DNA from: Dehalococcoidia bacterium
GTDB taxonomy: Bacteria; Chloroflexota; Dehalococcoidia; Tepidiformales; Tepidiformaceae
Assembly: GCA_020432105.1 (NCBI GenBank)
Contig: JAGQGZ010000007.1
Location: forward strand, 1 to 38,533
Direction of reading: 5' to 3'
DNA: 38,533 nt
The notes beneath the pieces are model-generated. The model did not search any database and had not been told where the DNA came from. It was given only the letters and a program-made list of their open reading frames with translations. Positions 10,810 through 20,453 of the stretch are shown here, piece by piece; position 1 is the first letter of the stretch, and the number at the start of each line of letters is the position of its first letter. A program made the position numbers and the translations under genes.

Positions 10810-11736
10810 TTACCTGCCCAACATACGGCGCACAATCGTCGCCACTATCCCCGGTCGCTTTCGCATCGACAGATAGTGCGATACGGATTCCGCTCGTCCC
10901 ATAAGCACCGGCTCACTCCAGTCCCGCAGCGTTGGCTCCCGATCCTCCTTCACCTGGGCCGGCGGCGTGAAACGGTCGAATGCGACCCATTCACCACCTC
11001 GGCGGGCACGAACATCCAACCCCGCCGATTGTGCCAGTGCTATCCCTGATGCGAGGTCCCAGATTCGTAGCCCACCAAAGCTGCACTGTGTGAAGATGCC
11101 TGCTGCCGTAAACGCGCACTCCAGCGCCGCTGAACCCGTCACCCGGTTGTCCCACCTCGGCGTGCGCCCCGGCGAACCACCGGGTGCCGCTGCCAGTGGC
11201 CGTCTTGCGCGCTGTTCCAGATTGGACGCCGGCATCGCAACGCCCTCAAACGAGAGTGGCTGTCCGGCCCGGGAATGCATCACTCCCGGCCGCAACTCCC
11301 GCGACGCTGCAACCCAGGTCGCACCCACCACCGGTCGCCCCCTGTGCAGCACACCGATGCTTGCGCAGTACAGCGGGAACCCGTTGACGAAGTTCGTTGT
11401 CCCGTCCACCGGGTCGATCGCCCAGGTGTACTCGGCGTCCACGGCCGGCTGCTCATCCACTTCCTCGCCTATGATCGCGTGGTCCGGCCACTCCTTCGCC
11501 AGCCGTTCCCGGATCATCGCCTCAACCGCCCGGTCAATCTGCGAAACCGGGTCCGTCGGTTCCGCTCCGTTCTTGCCCTCGGTCTTGTATTCGATGGTCA
11601 GCTCAGTGCCCAGCGAGGCAACAATGGCCTCACCGGCCGCTCGCGCGAAGCTCAGTGCCGCCTGCTCAACCGCCGCAAGCTCATCATCCGGCGGCAGCGC
11701 CTCGCCGCTCACTGGCTTCGGTCCGGCCTCGCCCAT
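10810..11736 (-). CDS. Inositol-monophosphatase-family phosphatase
   Basis: 308 residues. The metal-binding motifs of the Li-sensitive phosphatase superfamily are present: E91-E92 (IIGEEVDEQ), D108-P-V-D111-G-T-T (WAIDPVDGTTNFVNGFP) and W226-D227 (RIWDLASG). These enzymes hydrolyse phosphates of inositol, histidinol, fructose-1,6-bisphosphate or PAP with Mg2+ in the cytoplasm. The 30-40 extra N-terminal residues are not part of the fold. The C-terminal tail (about 260-308) is also longer than usual. The start lies 28 bp inside the ABC ATPase gene, so it is the last gene of the minus-strand ABC operon. Histidinol phosphatase and inositol phosphatase cannot be distinguished by eye. Confidence 0.85.
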   Translation of the reverse strand: MGEAGPKPVSGEALPPDDELAAVEQAALSFARAAGEAIVASLGTELTIEYKTEGKNGAEPTDPVSQIDRAVEAMIRERLAKEWPDHAIIGEEVDEQPAVDAEYTWAIDPVDGTTNFVNGFPLYCASIGVLHRGRPVVGATWVAASRELRPGVMHSRAGQPLSFEGVAMPASNLEQRARRPLAAAPGGSPGRTPRWDNRVTGSAALECAFTAAGIFTQCSFGGLRIWDLASGIALAQSAGLDVRARRGGEWVAFDRFTPPAQVKEDREPTLRDWSEPVLMGRAESVSHYLSMRKRPGIVATIVRRMLGR

Positions 11737-12665
11737 CGCGAGGCGTCATCCGCCTCATCGTCCGTCAGTTCCTCGGCTTCGACCTCCGCTGCCACAACCT
11801 CGGCCGGCTTAGGCTCTTTCGGACTTTCGGGTGCCCCTTCGTCGCTCGCTGTGAACACCCGTTGGTCCGCCCCCAACAGCGACGACAACCCTGAAGGGCG
11901 ATGAATCGTCGTCTCTGAATCGCCTTCTTGGGCCGCGAACGGACTTCGTTCACGCGCCTGTACATGCGTCCACACTTGCTGCTCCTCGCGCTCAAGCAGG
12001 CGCCCGTCCGAAAGCTCCTCCACCCGGTCTGCCCGCTCCATCACCAGGCGGTCGTGCGTGCAGGTCACAATCGTAATCCCCTCCGACCGCGCCAGGTCGC
12101 GCATCAGCCCGAACACCGCCACGGCTGTCGCTGAATCCAGTTCACCCGTCGGCTCGTCCGCCAGGATCAGCCGCGGCTCCGTCGCCAGCGCCCGCGCGAT
12201 AGCGACCCGCTGCTGCTCGCCACCGGAGAGCTCGTAGGGCCGGTGGTCCGTCCTCCGGCCCAGCCCCACAAGTTCGAGCACGCGCCGCGTCCGCCGGCCC
12301 CGCTCCCTGGCGCTCACCCCGGCGATCCGCAGTGGCAATTCCACGTTCTCGTGCGCCGAAAGCAGTGGCAACAGCCCGAATGACTGGAAGATCACGCTCA
12401 CCGTGTGGCGCCTCAGCTCATTGAGCTGCTTGTCGCTCATCCGATCGACGCGCTGACCGTCGATCCAGACCTCACCGCTCGTCGGCCGGTCGAGTCCGGC
12501 AATCAGGTTCAGCAGCGTCGTCTTGCCACTGCCCGAACGCCCGACCAGCGCCAGGAACTCCCCCGCTGCGATCTCCAGGCTCACATTGTCGACCGCCAGC
12601 ACATCCTCGGAGCCCAGCTTGAAGAGCCGCGAGACGTTCTTGACCGAAATCTGCGCCCCTGCCAC
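11709..12665 (-). CDS. MacB/LolD-type ABC transporter ATP-binding protein with C-terminal extension
   Basis: 318 residues from GTG, which overlaps the stop of the previous ATPase by one base. Nucleotide-binding motifs are Walker A (GRSGSGKTT, 42-50), Q-loop Gln94, signature LSGGEQQ (146-152), Walker B with catalytic Glu171 (LILADEPTGELDS) and H-loop His204. This signature and LDRPTSGEV are typical of MacB/LolD/FtsE-like ATPases that drive FtsX permeases. From about residue 231 to 318 there is an acidic Glu/Ala/Pro-rich extension with no recognised domain. It is probably paired with one of the two giant permeases at 13579-16974 and 17088-20453. Confidence 0.9.
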   Translation of the reverse strand: MAGAQISVKNVSRLFKLGSEDVLAVDNVSLEIAAGEFLALVGRSGSGKTTLLNLIAGLDRPTSGEVWIDGQRVDRMSDKQLNELRRHTVSVIFQSFGLLPLLSAHENVELPLRIAGVSARERGRRTRRVLELVGLGRRTDHRPYELSGGEQQRVAIARALATEPRLILADEPTGELDSATAVAVFGLMRDLARSEGITIVTCTHDRLVMERADRVEELSDGRLLEREEQQVWTHVQARERSPFAAQEGDSETTIHRPSGLSSLLGADQRVFTASDEGAPESPKEPKPAEVVAAEVEAEELTDDEADDASRWARPDRSQ

Positions 12666-13573
12666 TAGCCGCCCTCTCCTCGTCGGTCGCTTGGCAGCAC
12701 CTCCACCGCTCCCTCGCTCATCTGGATGCGCGCGCGATCGTGGATCTTCAACCGGTCCAGGAACTCGCGGGGAATCTGTAGCCGGCCCGCCGCATCAATC
12801 AACGCATATTCGTCGTGATGCACCGTCGGATGTCCCGCCTCGAACTCCACCCGCCGGTAGATCTCCGTGCTCGTCCGCCCGTCTCGAATCGCAACCACCC
12901 GGTCCACTCGTGAAGCGATCTCCGGGTCGTGGGTGACGATCACCACGGTGACACCAAACTTCCGGTTCAGGTCAACAAACACCTCGTAGATCAGGTCCGC
13001 TGCCAGCGAATCGAGTTCGCCCGTTGGCTCATCCGCCAGCAGCAGCGGTGGGTTGTTGGCCAGTGCCACGGCAATGCTCACCCGCTGCTGCTCGCCACCC
13101 GATAGCTGCTGTGGCCGGTGGTGCAGCCGGTGCGAAAGCCGCACTGCCTCCAGCAACTCCAGTGCTCGCCTCCGCGCCTCACCCGCGTCGGTGCTGTTGA
13201 GAATCATCGGCACCTCGACGTTCTGCAGCACGTCCAGGTACGGAACCAGGTTGCGCCCGGTCTGCTGCCAGACGAACCCCACCTGGTTCCGCCGGTAGTC
13301 CACCATGTCCCTGTCCGACATCGTCAACAGGTCGCGGCCCCCCACGAACGCTCGCCCCGCACTCGGCGTATCCAACCCCGCCAGGATATTCAGCAGGGTG
13401 CTCTTTCCCGACCCCGACGCCCCAACGATCGCCATGAACTCGCCCTGCCTCACCTTCAGGTCCAGCCCCCGCAGGGCCACTACCTCGAGGTTGGCGATCT
13501 TGTAGATCTTGAAAAGATCTTCACAGTTGATGTACAACTCGCGGCTTGCGAAGGTGGTCGCCGGATTGGTCAT
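12665..13573 (-). CDS. MacB/LolD-type ABC ATPase fused to an AbrB/SpoVT-like C-terminal domain
   Basis: 302 residues. ATPase motifs: Walker A G51-A-S-G-S-G-K-S-T, signature LSGGEQQ (157-163), Walker B with Glu182 (LLLADEPTGELDS) and H-loop His215. After the ATPase, residues about 254-294 (EYALIDAAGRLQIPREFLDRLKI and RARIQMSEGAVEVLP) match the pattern of AbrB/MazE/SpoVT swapped-hairpin domains: an I-D-x-x-G-R-(L/I)-x-I-P-x-E core followed by hydrophobic strands. In that family the domain is a DNA-binding dimer. Here it may instead be a dimerisation or regulatory tail of the transporter. It starts five bases after the permease stop, with GGGTGA upstream. The ATPase is certain; the tail assignment is good but not proven. 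Confidence 0.88.
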   Translation of the reverse strand: MTNPATTFASRELYINCEDLFKIYKIANLEVVALRGLDLKVRQGEFMAIVGASGSGKSTLLNILAGLDTPSAGRAFVGGRDLLTMSDRDMVDYRRNQVGFVWQQTGRNLVPYLDVLQNVEVPMILNSTDAGEARRRALELLEAVRLSHRLHHRPQQLSGGEQQRVSIAVALANNPPLLLADEPTGELDSLAADLIYEVFVDLNRKFGVTVVIVTHDPEIASRVDRVVAIRDGRTSTEIYRRVEFEAGHPTVHHDEYALIDAAGRLQIPREFLDRLKIHDRARIQMSEGAVEVLPSDRRGEGG

Positions 13574-13578
13574 GGAGG

Positions 13579-16500
13579 CTACAGTTCACCCATCCGCAGT
13601 GCCCGGTGGACGCTGAGACGGGAATAGAGAATTGCCAGGGCCACTATCGTAGCAACGAAGACCACCGCGAGCAGCGAGTATACCGTCAGCACCGTGCTCC
13701 AACTGACTTGCGTCACAATCGGTGGGATTACATCTTCGCCGCGTTCGTTCACCCCCATGAAATCGATCATCAGGCCGCTCAGCGGCATCCCCAGGAAGGT
13801 GCCGACAAGCGCCCCCGACACGATCACGAAGATCTGCTCGAAACTCACCAGTCCGAATATCTGGCGCGTCGAAAACCCCATCGTCCGCAGGATCGCAAAC
13901 TCCAGCGACCGCGACTGCGCCGTCAGGAAGCTATAGACGACGAATCCCAGTGCCGTCAGCAGCAGCACCGAAGCAAAAGAGAGGAAGAGGATACCCTCCC
14001 AGCTGGCCGCCACTAGCGGGTCGCTGCCCGCCTCTTCCCGCAGCCCGGCCTCAGTTGTTACCTCCGGCGCAAACGAGCTTCCCGGGAGCACAAGAGCCTC
14101 CGGGTCCAGGTCCATCCCATCGGCCGATGGTAGCCACGCCTCGTTCGGGTAGGCACCGGTCGCCAGCACCGGCACTCTTGCCGCCAGGTCCTGGATCGTA
14201 TCCAGGTTCGCCACCACCAGTTCCTCTCTGCCGTTGGGGTCCCAGGTCGGGAAATAGGAAAACGAACCGGCAATGACCACATTCACGTACTGCCGGTTGA
14301 TGTAGAGGAGCGTAGCGTCGCCTCGTTCCAGGCCTGTCTCCTCGAGAAAGCCCTCGCTCACGATCACCGCCATCGCGTCGGCGCCCGATCGTGGCCGGAA
14401 CCCGAAGAGCTGCGGCCCCTGGTCGGTCACGGAGAACTCCAGCTTCGCTGCGTACCTGTCCGAGCGCCCCTCCTCTACACGGGAGAGCACCGCCGGTTGG
14501 CGTAGCTGGCTCACCCCCCCAATCGTTGCGTAGCCCGCGACATCTTCAAATTCATCCACGATCGTTGGGTCCGCAAAGCCGAACTCGTCCTCAGCAGGGA
14601 GCGCTTTGCCGGTTTGCAGGGCGTCGGCCAGGAACACATGCCGGGTGTCTCCTGTGGGGGCCTGTGTAAATCGAAAGAAGATCGCGTCAAGCTGGAGTTC
14701 CTGGGCCGGGTCCGGCGATCCCTGGTTTCGCGGCGACTCAGGGTCATCCAGCGCCCCCGCGTAGAACTGCCAGCCACCGGTGTCTGGCTCGCCAACCGGG
14801 AACAGCGTGAACTCCCAGAGGCTCTTGTTCTCGTCGGACACTCGCACCGCCATGCGCCCGTGGAATGCCGGGTTCGTGAGCAGGTCCGGCGGCTTCGCCC
14901 AGAGCCCGATGTACCGATTTCCGGCGGGGATCTTGCCCACCTCGGGGGCAGGCTCCTCCTCCTCGGGTACCAGGCGCCCCATCAATTCCTCCAGCGACGC
15001 TCCGGCGAAGTCATTCCGCCAGTAGGCAATCTGTTCGAACTCGCCCGGCCGCACAGCCAGCAGGTCCGAACTCACGAAGGTGAACGTCGCCAGGTCTGAA
15101 TATGACGCGCTCATGCGGGCCACCGGTGTCACTCCCTCACTGTTCGTCGTCTCCTCCACCTGCGATACAAACTGGTCCGGCGGCGAACCACCCCGCGTGT
15201 AGGTGAGGCGTGCCGGCGCTCCCGCTTCGTAAGCCGAGCGGTCGTCGTAGCTTTGCTCCAGGGTCGCCCGGAAACCTGCCGCAAACATCCCCACCGCTGT
15301 CGCCAGCAACAGCAGCAAAATCAGCCGGCTGTAATGCAGGGGACTCCGCACCAGGTGCACCAGGCCCAGTGGGATCGTCGCCCCGTTCAGTCCCCGCCCC
15401 GCCCACGAAGCAACCCGTAGCACCAGCGGGAACAGGCGCAGGAAGACAAGCGCGATCATCAGCATGAACAACGTCGGCGTCACCAGCAGCAATGGGTCCG
15501 CCGAAAGGTCGCCGAACAACCGGTCGGTGACCAGCGAACCCTGCTGGCGCAACTGGTAGAAAAGGAACGCCCCCACCACGATCAGCCCTAGGTCGAGGTA
15601 GTAGCGGAGAAACGCCGGTTGCTGTGGCGGTCTCGCCAGCGATTGCTTGTAGTTCACGATGGAGTTGCTGGTTGCCCGGTAGGCCGGTATCAGCAACGCA
15701 GCCAGGGCCAGGAGCACCCCAACAACTGCCAGCAGGATCGCCCAGATCGAGTAGTTCACCGCAATCGTGCTGCCGCCGCTCAGTCCGCTGAACGATGGCG
15801 TCAGCCCCAGCAGCGAGATGGCGGTGCCGGCAAGCAACGGACCAACCACCACCCCCACAAGGCAGAGCATCGCCCCTTCAATGAAGTAGATCAGCATCAC
15901 CTGTCCCGTACTCGCGCCGCGACTCTTGAAGAGCGCTATCTCCCCCACCTGTCGCTCGACCAGCATGTTCGAGACCATCACCAGGTAGTACAGGACGATG
16001 CCGACGATCTGGACCATCAGCGCGAACAGCGGCAGTCGCGTGAAGAACAGCTTCTCCTCGTAGCTCTCAATGGTGTTGGGAAGCTCGGTATTCACCGTTG
16101 TCCGCAGGATCTCCGCTTTCAGCCCCGCACTCATCCCCTTCACGCTGTCCACGATCCCGCCGGCGTTGCGACTGTTGACCTTGTCGGCATCCACCAGCCC
16201 GTACGTCCAGAAGCTGCCGCGCAGGTCGGGCAGGTACGTCGTCAGGGCACCTGTCAACGTTTCCTCCGGCACGAAAAACGCATAGGTCGGCCATGAAGTA
16301 TTCGTCACGATGAAGCGGCTTTCATCTGCCACCCCAAACCAGAACGGGTCGTCCGGATCCAACGGGGCTATCAGCCCCACCACGGTCACCTTCACCGGCT
16401 CGCTCCCCAGCGCCCAGAACGGATGAAGGTCGAAGCTGTCCCCCACGGCAACGCCGAGTTGCACAGCCGCCTTCGCCCCCAGCATCACCTCCACCGCAGG

Positions 16501-16974
16501 AGCGCCGCTGGCAGGCGAGGCAATCTCGGCGATCCTTCCCTCCACTACCTCGATCTGCTCATCGAGCCCCTCATAGAACTGGAAGTGGGACCGTGGCCGT
16601 CCATCGTCCTCAAGGTCAGGGGGCACCCCCACCGGCGCCAGGAAGAACGTATCTGATCGCCCGTAGCGGACCGTCGCATCCAGGATCTCGCCTACACCGG
16701 TCGCCAGTTGCCGGCCTGTGATCTCCACCCGGTCGTCGTACAGTTCCCCGGTGAATCCCTGGCTGGAACTCAGGATCTCGATATCGAGATCGCGTGGGTT
16801 CTCCCCTTCCAGCGCGAACTTCAGCCCCAGGTCTCGGATGGCATCAGAGTAGATCGCTACGCTCGACATAAGCGCAGCCGAAAGGACCACCCCCACCATC
16901 ACCGTGGCCAGGAGCCGCCGATTCCCCATACTTCGACTGAAGACGAGCCGCAGGATAGCGAGAAATCGAGCCAA
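13579..16974 (-). CDS. Large FtsX-type ABC transporter permease (two FtsX domains)
   Basis: About 1131 residues from TTG 16974, which has GGGGAGG four bases upstream and gives a typical N-terminus (ARFLAILRLVFSRSMGNRRLL). The frame stays open to a TTG at 17007. The layout is an N-terminal membrane helix (about 15-40), a large extracytoplasmic domain, a first FtsX core (LVMVSNMLVERQVGEIALFKSRGAS with four helices), and three further membrane segments in a hinge. A second large external domain follows, then a C-terminal FtsX core (LEFAILRTMGFSTRQIFGLVSFEQIFVIVSGALVG). Such proteins form mechanotransmission-type exporters (MacB/LolCE-like) or envelope regulators with the ATPases encoded just downstream. 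The substrate is unknown. It is clearly homologous to the divergent permease at 17088. Confidence 0.9.
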   Translation of the reverse strand: MARFLAILRLVFSRSMGNRRLLATVMVGVVLSAALMSSVAIYSDAIRDLGLKFALEGENPRDLDIEILSSSQGFTGELYDDRVEITGRQLATGVGEILDATVRYGRSDTFFLAPVGVPPDLEDDGRPRSHFQFYEGLDEQIEVVEGRIAEIASPASGAPAVEVMLGAKAAVQLGVAVGDSFDLHPFWALGSEPVKVTVVGLIAPLDPDDPFWFGVADESRFIVTNTSWPTYAFFVPEETLTGALTTYLPDLRGSFWTYGLVDADKVNSRNAGGIVDSVKGMSAGLKAEILRTTVNTELPNTIESYEEKLFFTRLPLFALMVQIVGIVLYYLVMVSNMLVERQVGEIALFKSRGASTGQVMLIYFIEGAMLCLVGVVVGPLLAGTAISLLGLTPSFSGLSGGSTIAVNYSIWAILLAVVGVLLALAALLIPAYRATSNSIVNYKQSLARPPQQPAFLRYYLDLGLIVVGAFLFYQLRQQGSLVTDRLFGDLSADPLLLVTPTLFMLMIALVFLRLFPLVLRVASWAGRGLNGATIPLGLVHLVRSPLHYSRLILLLLLATAVGMFAAGFRATLEQSYDDRSAYEAGAPARLTYTRGGSPPDQFVSQVEETTNSEGVTPVARMSASYSDLATFTFVSSDLLAVRPGEFEQIAYWRNDFAGASLEELMGRLVPEEEEPAPEVGKIPAGNRYIGLWAKPPDLLTNPAFHGRMAVRVSDENKSLWEFTLFPVGEPDTGGWQFYAGALDDPESPRNQGSPDPAQELQLDAIFFRFTQAPTGDTRHVFLADALQTGKALPAEDEFGFADPTIVDEFEDVAGYATIGGVSQLRQPAVLSRVEEGRSDRYAAKLEFSVTDQGPQLFGFRPRSGADAMAVIVSEGFLEETGLERGDATLLYINRQYVNVVIAGSFSYFPTWDPNGREELVVANLDTIQDLAARVPVLATGAYPNEAWLPSADGMDLDPEALVLPGSSFAPEVTTEAGLREEAGSDPLVAASWEGILFLSFASVLLLTALGFVVYSFLTAQSRSLEFAILRTMGFSTRQIFGLVSFEQIFVIVSGALVGTFLGMPLSGLMIDFMGVNERGEDVIPPIVTQVSWSTVLTVYSLLAVVFVATIVALAILYSRLSVHRALRMGEL

Positions 16975-17063
16975 CGAGCCTCCCCAGCCGGGCAAGCCTA
17001 TCAGCAATCATTGGCGCCCAGCAAAGCACCCACGCCGGAGTGCCCCACGGCCTCCCCTGTCTG

Positions 17064-17069
17064 TAGGCT
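17064..17069 (+). promoter_or_regulatory. Possible -10 box for the plus-strand permease
   Basis: TAGGCT, about 19 bases before the CTG proposed as start of the plus-strand permease; GGGAG follows at 17077-17081. No convincing -35 is visible. The spacer between the two divergent permeases is only about 110 bp, so both promoters must lie in it. Confidence 0.2.
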
Positions 17070-17087
17070 ACGTGCCGGGAGCATGCC

Positions 17088-20000
17088 CTGAATCGCTTCG
17101 GTCCGTCCTGGCAAATCATCACCCAGCGCGCAGCGGCCAACTGGCGGTTGCTCAGCGTCCTCGCGCTTGGCATTGTCATCGCCTCCACCCTCCTTGCCGC
17201 CGCTCCCATCTATGCCCGCACTATGGGCGACCTCGGCCTCACCTTTGTCGTACGCGAAGACCTTGAATCCACCTCCGCCACCCGCATCCTCCTCCGCGAT
17301 GCCGAGATCGGCACATCCGATGGACAGGCCCTGTCCGATGCCATCGACGCCCGGATAGACGAACGCGCAGGCTGGTTCACCGGGTCCATCGCCCGCTACG
17401 AGCTTGGCGCTCGCTTCACCATCGCCGGCGAGACGGAGATCGAGCCCGTCTTCGGCCAGCCCTACCTCGAACTCCAGGCGTTCGAAGGGTACGAAGAGCA
17501 CGTCTCCATCGATGAAGGGCGTCTTCCCGCTCGCTCAGCTCCGGGTGCTCCCATCGAAGTCGCCATCTCCGCCGAGGGTGCCGAAGCCGCCGACCTCGCC
17601 CTTGGCGATACGGTCGTCCTCAGCGAACGCCTGGACGACTGCGAACAGGAGATTGTCGAAGGAGAGATGCCGGTCGTAACCCCCTGCCCGCCCGGCACGC
17701 CGACCGTCGAATTGCTCTACCAGTTGCAGGCTACGGTCGTCGCCATCGTCTCCCCCCTCGATGATGAATCCCCTGCCTGGCCCGGTGGCGCAAACGCCTT
17801 TTTCGCACCCCGCCGCGCCATCCCGGGCGCCGGCCCCCAGGTTCCCGCGTTCACCCATCCCGAGACCCTCACGCTCGACCTCGGCACTGCCCTCCCCGGC
17901 TATCGCGCCGATCTCAGCTGGCGCCTCGATGTCGATCCTGAGGCGATTTCCCGCGCAAATTACCGCCGCGCACTCGCGGATATCGAAGCCCTCCGCGATG
18001 ACCTTCTCCCGCTTGGTGCGCTCACCTTCAGCCCACTCGTTAACACGCTCGCCGAATTCGAGCGCGGCGAAAGCGTGAAGCAGACACCGCTCACCATCCT
18101 CCTCCTCCAGATCTCGGCCATTGCCCTCTTCTACGTCGGCCTCGTCTCCGCAATCGTGGTCGAACGTCAGTCCGATGAAGTGGCGCTCCTTCGCAGCCGC
18201 GGCGCAAGCGTCGCCCAGGTTCTTACCATCTACCTGGGCGAAGGCCTCCTCGTCGCTATCCCCACGCTCCTGGTTGCGCCCCTCCTCGCTACCATTGCCA
18301 CCTCCGCCCTTGGCCTCACCCCCGCCTTCAAAGACGTCAACGATGGCAACCTGCTGCCGGCTGTGCTCGTGCCCCAGGCATTCCTCTGGGCGCTTGCCGG
18401 AGTTACGCTCTCACTCCTTGCCGTTGTCGTTCCTGTCTTCTTCGTCGCCCGGCGCACGTCCGTCACCCAGAAACGGCAGGAAGCCCGGCCTTCTCCTTCC
18501 ATTCTCCAGCGCTACTATCTCGACCTCGCCCTCGCCGCCTTTGCCGGCGTCCTCCTTTGGGAACTCAACGAACGTGGCTCCGCCTTTGAGCCCAGCTCCA
18601 CCGGCGGCATCAGCTCCGATCCCATCCTCCTTGCTTCCCCAACCCTCATCATCGCTGCCGCTGCCGCCCTCGTCCTTCGCTTCTATCCCTTGATCCTGCG
18701 CGTTGCCACCCGCGGCCTCACCGCAGTCGCCGGAGTTACCGTCACCATCGGCCTCTGGCAACTCGTCCGCCGGCCTGGCCAGTACACCCGGCTCACCCTC
18801 CTCCTCATGATGGGCGTCGCCGTCGGCACCTTTGCCGCGAGTTACAGCAGCACCGCCGACCGGTCCTACCGCGACCGCGCTGCCTTCGCCGCCGGTACCG
18901 ACCTTCGTGCCCGCACCGCCGACCGCATCACGGCCCCAGGCAACACCCAGGACCATGAAGCCGACCTTGCCGCCATCGACGGCATCGACCTTGCCTCGCT
19001 CGTCTATCGCTCCGGCACCAGGACCGGTGCTGTCGGCAACTCCGGCCGCCAGGTCGTCATCCTCGGCGTTGACCCCACCGATGCCTCCACCATGCTCTTT
19101 TCCCGCGAAGACTTTGCCGACCAGAGCCTCCAGAGCCTGATGTTTCAGCTCCAGGGCGCGGATCAACTCCGTGGCCTCCCGGTTCCCGCCGGCGCCACCA
19201 GCGTTACCCTCTGGGTCAACTCAACGGTCTCCCGGGGCGACGTTTCGCTCTGGCTCCGGGTTCGCGATGCGAATGGCATCCACCGCCTCTTCAGCTTCGG
19301 AAAGCTCGACACCCCCGGCTGGCGCCTCATGGAGGCTCCACTCTCCACCGCCACCGTCACCCTCGCCGAACCAGCCACCGTACTCGGCATCCTCATGACC
19401 GAGCCTCCGAGCCGCTTCAACACGTTCCCCGATCCCGTCTACTTCGATGACCTCACTGCAGTCGGCCCCGGCGTTTCTGAGGTGCTCGACGACTTCGAGA
19501 CCATTCGCTGGGACAATCTACCCACCCTCGAAAACGCTTCCGATGAATATGAGCTGAGTTCCGATGAGGTCCAGTCGGGCACCCTCGCCGGCAAGTTCAC
19601 CTTCCGCCTCGGCGTCCAGAATGAACGTCGAGGGCTCTATGCTCTCGACGAAAACGTTCCGATTAGGATCCTCGCCAGCGACGAATTCACCAACCTCACG
19701 GGCATCTCTGCTGGCGGCCTCGGCACGCTCCGCCATGGCCAGGTACTCGTCCCCATCAGGGTCGTCGCCGGCTTCGAGCACTTCCCTACACTCCCCGGCG
19801 ACGATGGCCCCGCGATCGTCGTGAACCTCGACCAGTTCGCCTCCTGGGTCAACGCCTTCAACCCGTCCGGCGCGCCCAACGTCGAACCCAATGAGGCCTG
19901 GTTCAAGCTCTCTCCCACCGTCGACACCGAAGCCCTCGAAGACACCCTCAGCGCACCTCCCTGGCGAATGGGGCGCTTCGTCAACCATGCCTCCGAACTC

Positions 20001-20453
20001 GACACCATCCAGCGCAACCCCCTCCTCACCGCCGGCGGCGCGGGCATCCTTCTGGTCAGCTTTGTTGGCGTCCTCGTGCTCATCGGCGCTGCCTTCCTCG
20101 TTTCCCTCTGGACTGCGGTCGAACGGCGCCGCACCGAGTTCGCCGTACTCCGCGCTATGGGCATCTCCCGCGGCCAACTCCTCCGCCTGCTCACCTTCGA
20201 ATACGCCCTCGTCAGCATCGTCGGTGTCGTCGTCGGCGCCTACCTCGGCCTCCTTGTCGGCCGCCAGATGCTCTCGTTCCTCGACGTTACGGAAGCGGGC
20301 AATCGCGTCGAGCCATCCTTCATTCTCCAGACCGACTGGTCCATGGTCGCCGGCGGCGGTGGCGTCGTAGCCGCCGTCTTCATCCTCGCGCTCCTCTTCG
20401 CCGTCCGCATCATTGCTCGCACCACCGATGCCCAGGCCCTCCGCAATGACTAG
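17088..20453 (+). CDS. Large FtsX-type ABC transporter permease (two FtsX domains), non-standard start likely
   Basis: The nearest standard start is TTG 17148 (1101 residues), but it would begin inside the first membrane helix. Homology to the divergent paralogue (pattern I-x8-N-x-R-L-L, then V-x7-L) extends upstream to residues LNRFGPSWQIITQRAAANWR. A CTG at 17088, with GGGAG six bases before, fits best as start; a TAG blocks the frame at 17064. The protein has an N-terminal helix, a long external domain and an FtsX core (VERQSDEVALLRSRGASVAQVL) with further helices. A second external domain and a C-terminal FtsX core (RRTEFAVLRAMGISRGQLLRLL) complete it. No ATPase follows, so it presumably uses one of the two ATPases of the minus-strand operon. 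The stop interlocks with the deacetylase stop (CTAG). Confidence 0.88.
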   Translation: MNRFGPSWQIITQRAAANWRLLSVLALGIVIASTLLAAAPIYARTMGDLGLTFVVREDLESTSATRILLRDAEIGTSDGQALSDAIDARIDERAGWFTGSIARYELGARFTIAGETEIEPVFGQPYLELQAFEGYEEHVSIDEGRLPARSAPGAPIEVAISAEGAEAADLALGDTVVLSERLDDCEQEIVEGEMPVVTPCPPGTPTVELLYQLQATVVAIVSPLDDESPAWPGGANAFFAPRRAIPGAGPQVPAFTHPETLTLDLGTALPGYRADLSWRLDVDPEAISRANYRRALADIEALRDDLLPLGALTFSPLVNTLAEFERGESVKQTPLTILLLQISAIALFYVGLVSAIVVERQSDEVALLRSRGASVAQVLTIYLGEGLLVAIPTLLVAPLLATIATSALGLTPAFKDVNDGNLLPAVLVPQAFLWALAGVTLSLLAVVVPVFFVARRTSVTQKRQEARPSPSILQRYYLDLALAAFAGVLLWELNERGSAFEPSSTGGISSDPILLASPTLIIAAAAALVLRFYPLILRVATRGLTAVAGVTVTIGLWQLVRRPGQYTRLTLLLMMGVAVGTFAASYSSTADRSYRDRAAFAAGTDLRARTADRITAPGNTQDHEADLAAIDGIDLASLVYRSGTRTGAVGNSGRQVVILGVDPTDASTMLFSREDFADQSLQSLMFQLQGADQLRGLPVPAGATSVTLWVNSTVSRGDVSLWLRVRDANGIHRLFSFGKLDTPGWRLMEAPLSTATVTLAEPATVLGILMTEPPSRFNTFPDPVYFDDLTAVGPGVSEVLDDFETIRWDNLPTLENASDEYELSSDEVQSGTLAGKFTFRLGVQNERRGLYALDENVPIRILASDEFTNLTGISAGGLGTLRHGQVLVPIRVVAGFEHFPTLPGDDGPAIVVNLDQFASWVNAFNPSGAPNVEPNEAWFKLSPTVDTEALEDTLSAPPWRMGRFVNHASELDTIQRNPLLTAGGAGILLVSFVGVLVLIGAAFLVSLWTAVERRRTEFAVLRAMGISRGQLLRLLTFEYALVSIVGVVVGAYLGLLVGRQMLSFLDVTEAGNRVEPSFILQTDWSMVAGGGGVVAAVFILALLFAVRIIARTTDAQALRND

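Follow-up and report, generated by a model that had tools for sequence, protein, structure and literature searches.

This locus raises the question of where its plus-strand permease gene begins. In the window, the whole 38,533-nucleotide stretch of DNA that was analyzed, an in-frame TAG (17064–17066) lies upstream of the gene, and the earliest ATG, GTG or TTG codon in the permease frame is the TTG at 17148–17150, where the mechanical list of open reading frames starts the gene. The initial annotation had proposed that translation begins at the CTG codon at 17088. CTG is seldom proposed as a start by annotation programs. The host organism is a member of the order that includes Tepidiforma (Dehalococcoidia), and its draft genome, in 399 contigs, is 81% complete. 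The features needed for the argument are as follows.

11709–12665, minus strand: second ABC ATPase gene, LolD/MacB-like (PF00005; best NCBIfam match LolD, below cut-off)
12665–13573, minus strand: ABC ATPase gene next to the paralogous permease, LolD/MacB-like (PF00005; best NCBIfam match LolD, below cut-off)
13579–16974, minus strand: divergent paralogous permease (PF02687), most likely starting at TTG 16974, as judged from the start column in an alignment of 35 paralogues
16995–17000, minus strand: the paralogue's −10-like box (TAGGCT), 20 nucleotides before TTG 16974
17064–17069, plus strand: −10-like box TAGGCT of the permease, which contains the in-frame TAG; supported by TANNNT conservation and by the recurrence of TAGGCTACGTGCC in L032
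17077–17081, plus strand: GGGAG, Shine-Dalgarno-like, six bases 5′ of the CTG
17088–17090, plus strand: CTG, most likely start codon, in the column of orthologue ATG and GTG codons
17088–20453, stop included, plus strand: FtsX-type ABC permease gene, 1,121 residues from the CTG
17148–17150, plus strand: TTG, first standard in-frame start, probably internal, with weak anti-Shine-Dalgarno pairing, no TANNNT, and conserved residues upstream

The divergent permease pair and the CTG codon

The permease matches PF02687 in two stretches (E = 9.3e-20; 71.3 bits, above the gathering cut-off of 25.5). The two PF02687 stretches and the adjoining LolD/MacB-like ATPases resemble the arrangement of LolC, LolE and MacB type permeases of the FtsX family; however, the protein is 1,121 residues long and scores far below the curated cut-offs of the LolCE equivalog (TIGR02212; 31.1 of 362.45 bits) and of the ADOP duplicated permease model (TIGR03434; 28.1 of 622.3 bits). 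Positions 690–788 of alignment A1, near the middle of the permease, give a weak match to solved structures of the flagellar filament sheath protein FlaA (E = 2.8e-6).

The permease shares 31% identity with the divergent paralogue over their main match. That match opens at TTG 16974 of the paralogue and, on the query side, at residue 8, the position of the CTG, in agreement with the alignment between the two proteins that had been claimed for this region. In the region 16972–17007 (minus strand), TTG 16974 matches the start column in the paralogue alignment and is preceded by GGAGG, and the first TTG of the paralogue frame, at 17007, lies upstream of the paralogue's own −10-like box. For this genome, the comparison corrects the N-termini of two permeases.

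The initial annotation was exact to the base in reading the TAG at 17064, a GGGAG set six bases (17082–17087) before the CTG, and TTG 17148 as the first standard start. Between the TAG and the stop codon at 20451–20453 the frame runs for 1,128 codons. CTG is used sparingly here: with the start counted it accounts for 12 of the 1,121 permease codons (1.1%; CTC, 10%), and across 39 permease loci it makes up 1.3% of the triplets in the 60 nucleotides upstream of the CTG column. Because CTG is so scarce both in the gene and among upstream triplets, an accidental CTG on the predicted column is about 1% likely. Among the early permease codons of the 39 loci it is commoner than in the window gene (9.2%).

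Pairing energies were calculated with the universal anti-Shine-Dalgarno sequence, which we take to apply to this genome, whose own 16S was matched for the 5′ part only. The GGGAG before CTG 17088 pairs with −6.6 kcal/mol, the strongest value among the near-cognate in-frame codons of the gap, but 17% of shuffled sequences equal it. We also observed that GGGAGCATGCCC (17077–17088), which comprises GGGAG and the first base of the CTG, is almost palindromic; it might serve as a regulator site or hide the leader.

The main rival to a CTG start is an assembly error, either at 17088 or in the run of C residues at 17086–17088, such that a true standard start stands at this position or ATG 17083 is in frame. 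This is a metagenome-type draft, and ATG 17083 sits 13 nucleotides behind TAGGCT, a distance within the apparently leaderless spacing described below. However, the long frame contains no internal stop, GGGAG ends only one base before ATG 17083 as opposed to six before the CTG, and a CTG occupies the start position in two other genomes. Those two genomes show starts of this kind to exist in the order, although they do not prove the base in the window. We consider an assembly error improbable.

Orthologue start columns and the onset of coding conservation

The order that was compared consists of one family with 38 genomes. A single-protein search of the named genomes returned no relatives, and an alignment-based search returned 41 loci. 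The start region was readable in 35 of the 38 genomes, including that of the window; G014, G017 and G023 gave weak matches confined to the C-terminal domain, with no readable start region. The resulting 39 permease loci comprise 35 from the order and four from outside it, and L044, L046 and L047 stand outside all counts. One Tepidiforma orthologue (L038; G034:C2:200133-203499) is matched by two pieces that overlap and lie in different frames (query residues 3–354 and 353–1127), as if by a frameshift.

At the position of CTG 17088 the 39 loci carry 22 ATG, four GTG, one CTG (that of the window) and 12 other codons, so that ATG or GTG fills exactly this column in 26 of the 38 other loci. Eleven of the 12 loci with another codon have an accepted ATG, GTG or TTG no more than four codons away, and the twelfth (L012, genome G022) has a CTG three codons downstream. 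Among the 24 relatives that share Trp8, the column holds 22 ATG, one GTG and one CTC, the last belonging to L037, whose ATG lies four codons upstream. In more distant loci (27–39% identity, family membership unchecked), ATG or GTG occupies precisely this position in 10 of 10 cases; of twelve such loci, L083, on a contig shared with L032, was left uncounted and L088 has no usable match. This comparison bears out the CTG start that had been claimed, and we consider it highly probable, on the strength of aligned sequences, that CTG 17088 is the start codon of the permease gene. A CTG start of this kind is a rare but known type of start and not a novel mechanism.

Note that starts lying a few codons off the main column were chosen by hand in 12 of the 39 permease rows and four of the 35 paralogue rows. 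In L012 and in the L039 paralogue, a GTG further upstream was not accepted because it directly adjoins the −10-like box, whereas in L037 an ATG at the same offset as the GTG of L012, nine nucleotides behind the L037 box, was taken as the start.

Coding conservation sets in at the same place. Scored against 34 relatives of the order (L041, L042, L043 and L045, from outside the order, were omitted), codons 17091–17147 have a mean BLOSUM62 value of +1.38, which none of 5,000 shuffles reached (shuffle mean, −0.91), and shifted frames over the same stretch give −0.8 to −1.3. For the first ten residues alone, scored in the main group only, 0.4% of shuffles do as well. The stretch 17067–17087, seven codons long, averages −0.88 against the same columns and relatives. 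The earlier proposal that the whole stretch between the TAG and the TTG reads as the expected N-terminus therefore holds from about 17088 onward but not for the codons before it, and the scores argue that coding starts at CTG 17088 or close to it, well before TTG 17148.

Translation from TTG 17148 would yield a protein without the preceding 20 residues, Trp8 and NWR among them, but, as read from the sequence, would keep the greater part of the hydrophobic segment in the first helix. This TTG is the earliest standard in-frame start, and 11 of 25 rows have Met in its column. However, the 19 codons preceding it are conserved in frame, it pairs with the anti-Shine-Dalgarno sequence at only −1.7 kcal/mol, and no TANNNT occurs in the 40 nucleotides upstream of it. 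In addition, a check for orthologues starting at the equivalent of TTG 17148 showed an acceptable standard start in 37 of the 38 other loci that lies well before this position, within four codons of the CTG column. We judge it very unlikely that the gene starts at the TTG, although a second, shorter product may be made from it besides the one from the CTG. Other routes to initiation have scarcely any likelihood: downstream of the presumed transcript start, the remaining near-cognate codons are ATC 17115 and ATC 17118, and a two-codon frame (ATG-CCC-TGA, from ATG 17083 to TGA 17091) that overlaps the CTG and might pass ribosomes to it can be read in the sequence, but both ATC codons lie downstream of conserved Trp8 and pair weakly (−2.9 and −1.5 kcal/mol), and L005, L006 and L032 have no ATG at the position of 17083.

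Leader layout and start codon type

The reading in which CTG 17088 starts the permease also fits the layout of its upstream region. A TANNNT box lies 4–30 nucleotides before 69 of 74 assigned starts (39 permease and 35 paralogue; 68 from the order), whereas 1,000 composition-keeping shuffles gave a mean of 7.3 and a maximum of 16. TANNNT about 12 base pairs 5′ of the start has been described as a mark of leaderless genes (PMC3160421). A scan with generic sigma-70 promoter and terminator patterns gave no matches. The two divergent permeases of the window share the −10-like hexamer TAGGCT, with boxes 63 base pairs apart (16995–17000, minus strand; 17064–17069, plus strand), and divergent box pairs recur in the order.

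The 69 starts with a box fall into two sets. Boxes within 15 nucleotides precede 52 starts, consisting of 49 ATG and three GTG; boxes at 17 nucleotides or more precede 17 starts, consisting of five ATG, five GTG, four TTG and three CTG. All three CTG starts thus belong to the far-box set and none to the near-box set. Start type is associated with box distance (Fisher p = 2.5e-7; p = 1.2e-3 with each genus and gene counted once per state), in a test that omits the five starts lacking a box and in which box distances are not fully independent of start assignment, the starts being partly assigned by hand. Shine-Dalgarno words of at least four bases precede 12 of the 17 far-box starts versus two of the 52 near-box starts, and mean anti-Shine-Dalgarno pairing is −9.4 versus −1.4 kcal/mol. 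The near-box starts are apparently leaderless. The permease lies outside the leaderless layout, in which the −10 box stands about 7–15 nucleotides before the start: 18 nucleotides separate its TAGGCT from CTG 17088, and the ATG codons of its nearest relatives are similarly placed (L005, 17; L006, 18). That start codon type tracks leader layout is a more general observation than the single CTG start. Neither this relation nor the place of the in-frame TAG within a conserved promoter-like box had been noted in the initial annotation.

These data resemble what a mycobacterial study reports, namely that leaderless transcripts begin at ATG or GTG rather than CTG or TTG (PMC4633059): here, too, near-box starts are ATG or GTG only, and the farther starts, often preceded by Shine-Dalgarno sequences, include TTG. 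They differ in that CTG was unenriched in mycobacteria even behind a Shine-Dalgarno sequence, whereas three of the 17 such starts are CTG here, with leaders deduced from DNA only.

The two further CTG candidates belong to different genera, so that with the window three genera are represented. In the permease locus L012 (G022), the CTG at the start position has AGGAGG six bases upstream, and the corresponding codon is GTG in its congener L018 and ATG in L026, L029 and L040; in the paralogue locus L039 (G003), the CTG at the start position is accompanied by AGGA. The three changes to CTG look independent because the genera differ and the nearest relatives carry ATG (L005 and L006, for the window) or GTG (L018, for L012). 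On sequence grounds the CTG starts of L012 and L039 are less certain than that of the window, because each has an in-frame GTG right behind its box, which we judge to be upstream of the transcript start; in L012 this GTG is the sole standard codon nearby. A chance CTG is also likelier in these two loci, because the codon is commoner in the relatives. A GTG right behind a −10-like box was seen in three upstream regions, TAGATTGTG, TAGTCTGTG and TAGACTGTG, those of the L012 permease and paralogue (the L012/L047 region of G022) and of the L039 paralogue (G003).

We envisage that the permease promoter would use the −10-like box TAGGCT at 17064–17069 and that the mRNA 5′ end would lie near 17076. 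TAG 17064 is inside the box, and the mRNA should contain nothing upstream of about 17076. On the short leader bearing GGGAG, ribosomes would initiate at CTG 17088 with the initiator tRNA, and the product would be a 1,121-residue FtsX-type permease that, as placed by comparison, begins where its orthologues begin. The Shine-Dalgarno-led layout of the gene would explain why a CTG is tolerated, while the close-box, apparently leaderless relatives use ATG and rarely GTG. Such a start is probably weak and would hold the protein level low. A broader proposal, which we regard as possible but doubtful, is that the permease pair of this order exists in two layouts, one apparently leaderless with ATG and rarely GTG, the other Shine-Dalgarno-led, and that in the latter weak starts, TTG and even CTG, evolved on three or more separate occasions to restrain permease synthesis, hidden by gene callers that accept only ATG, GTG and TTG.

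CTG initiation in the order at large

Like Shine-Dalgarno-led CUG genes of other bacteria, the permease has CTG in the start column and no other fitting start; the Shine-Dalgarno-like sequence six bases 5′ of it is unremarkable by itself. Annotated CUG starts amount to 0.024% of bacterial starts, with a yield of 0.86% of that of AUG (PMC11497404), whereas the permease start is placed by comparison and not by proteomics. By that count CUG starts are near-absent in bacteria, and the comparison made here adds three probable cases, all in one transporter pair and all in the longer-leader layout. No report of CTG starts in Chloroflexota was present among the matches listed, which cover the literature in part. 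Orthologue columns that lack a standard start and hold CTG in its place suggest a route to more such cases.

General use of CTG starts across the order is unsupported. Control loci of trmD (30 of 37 matches), miaA (28 of 30 loci, with two incomplete loci excluded) and murA (30 of 35 matches) gave no CTG start in 88 cases, these controls not being matched for a Shine-Dalgarno leader. Likewise, in 677,554 bases there was no excess of CTG behind Shine-Dalgarno-like sites (2.7% at Shine-Dalgarno spacing versus 3.3% at other spacings, p = 0.11), a weak test in which GTG was equally unenriched. The controls and the site scan together indicate that CTG starts are scattered exceptions here. An automatic tally of starts (24 of 25 orthologue clusters, the permease cluster excluded; 36 regions, 205 sequences) was set aside as too noisy, owing to shadow frames and variable N-termini.

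An initiator tRNA with a standard anticodon arm was found in four of the seven genomes searched (G022, G003, G005 and G032), whereas neither the standard nor a looser pattern located one in G000, G015 or G018, and the draft genome of the window is among the genomes in which none was located. G022 and G003 are the genomes of the other two CTG cases, and their ordinary anticodon arms speak against an unusual initiator tRNA as the cause in those two genomes. Nothing suggests a lineage with relaxed initiation.

Irregularities of other kinds were noted among the control loci. Two of the 28 miaA loci have no clear start in the stretch shown: L155 has none, and L179 (G011) has GCG where its relatives carry ATG or GTG, its only standard start shown being a TTG four codons upstream. 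The miaA of Tepidiforma flava (L182; G032:C1:134572-135419) is found as two adjoining pieces in different frames, and one trmD match (L145; G016:C37:172-855) contains a single in-frame TAG.
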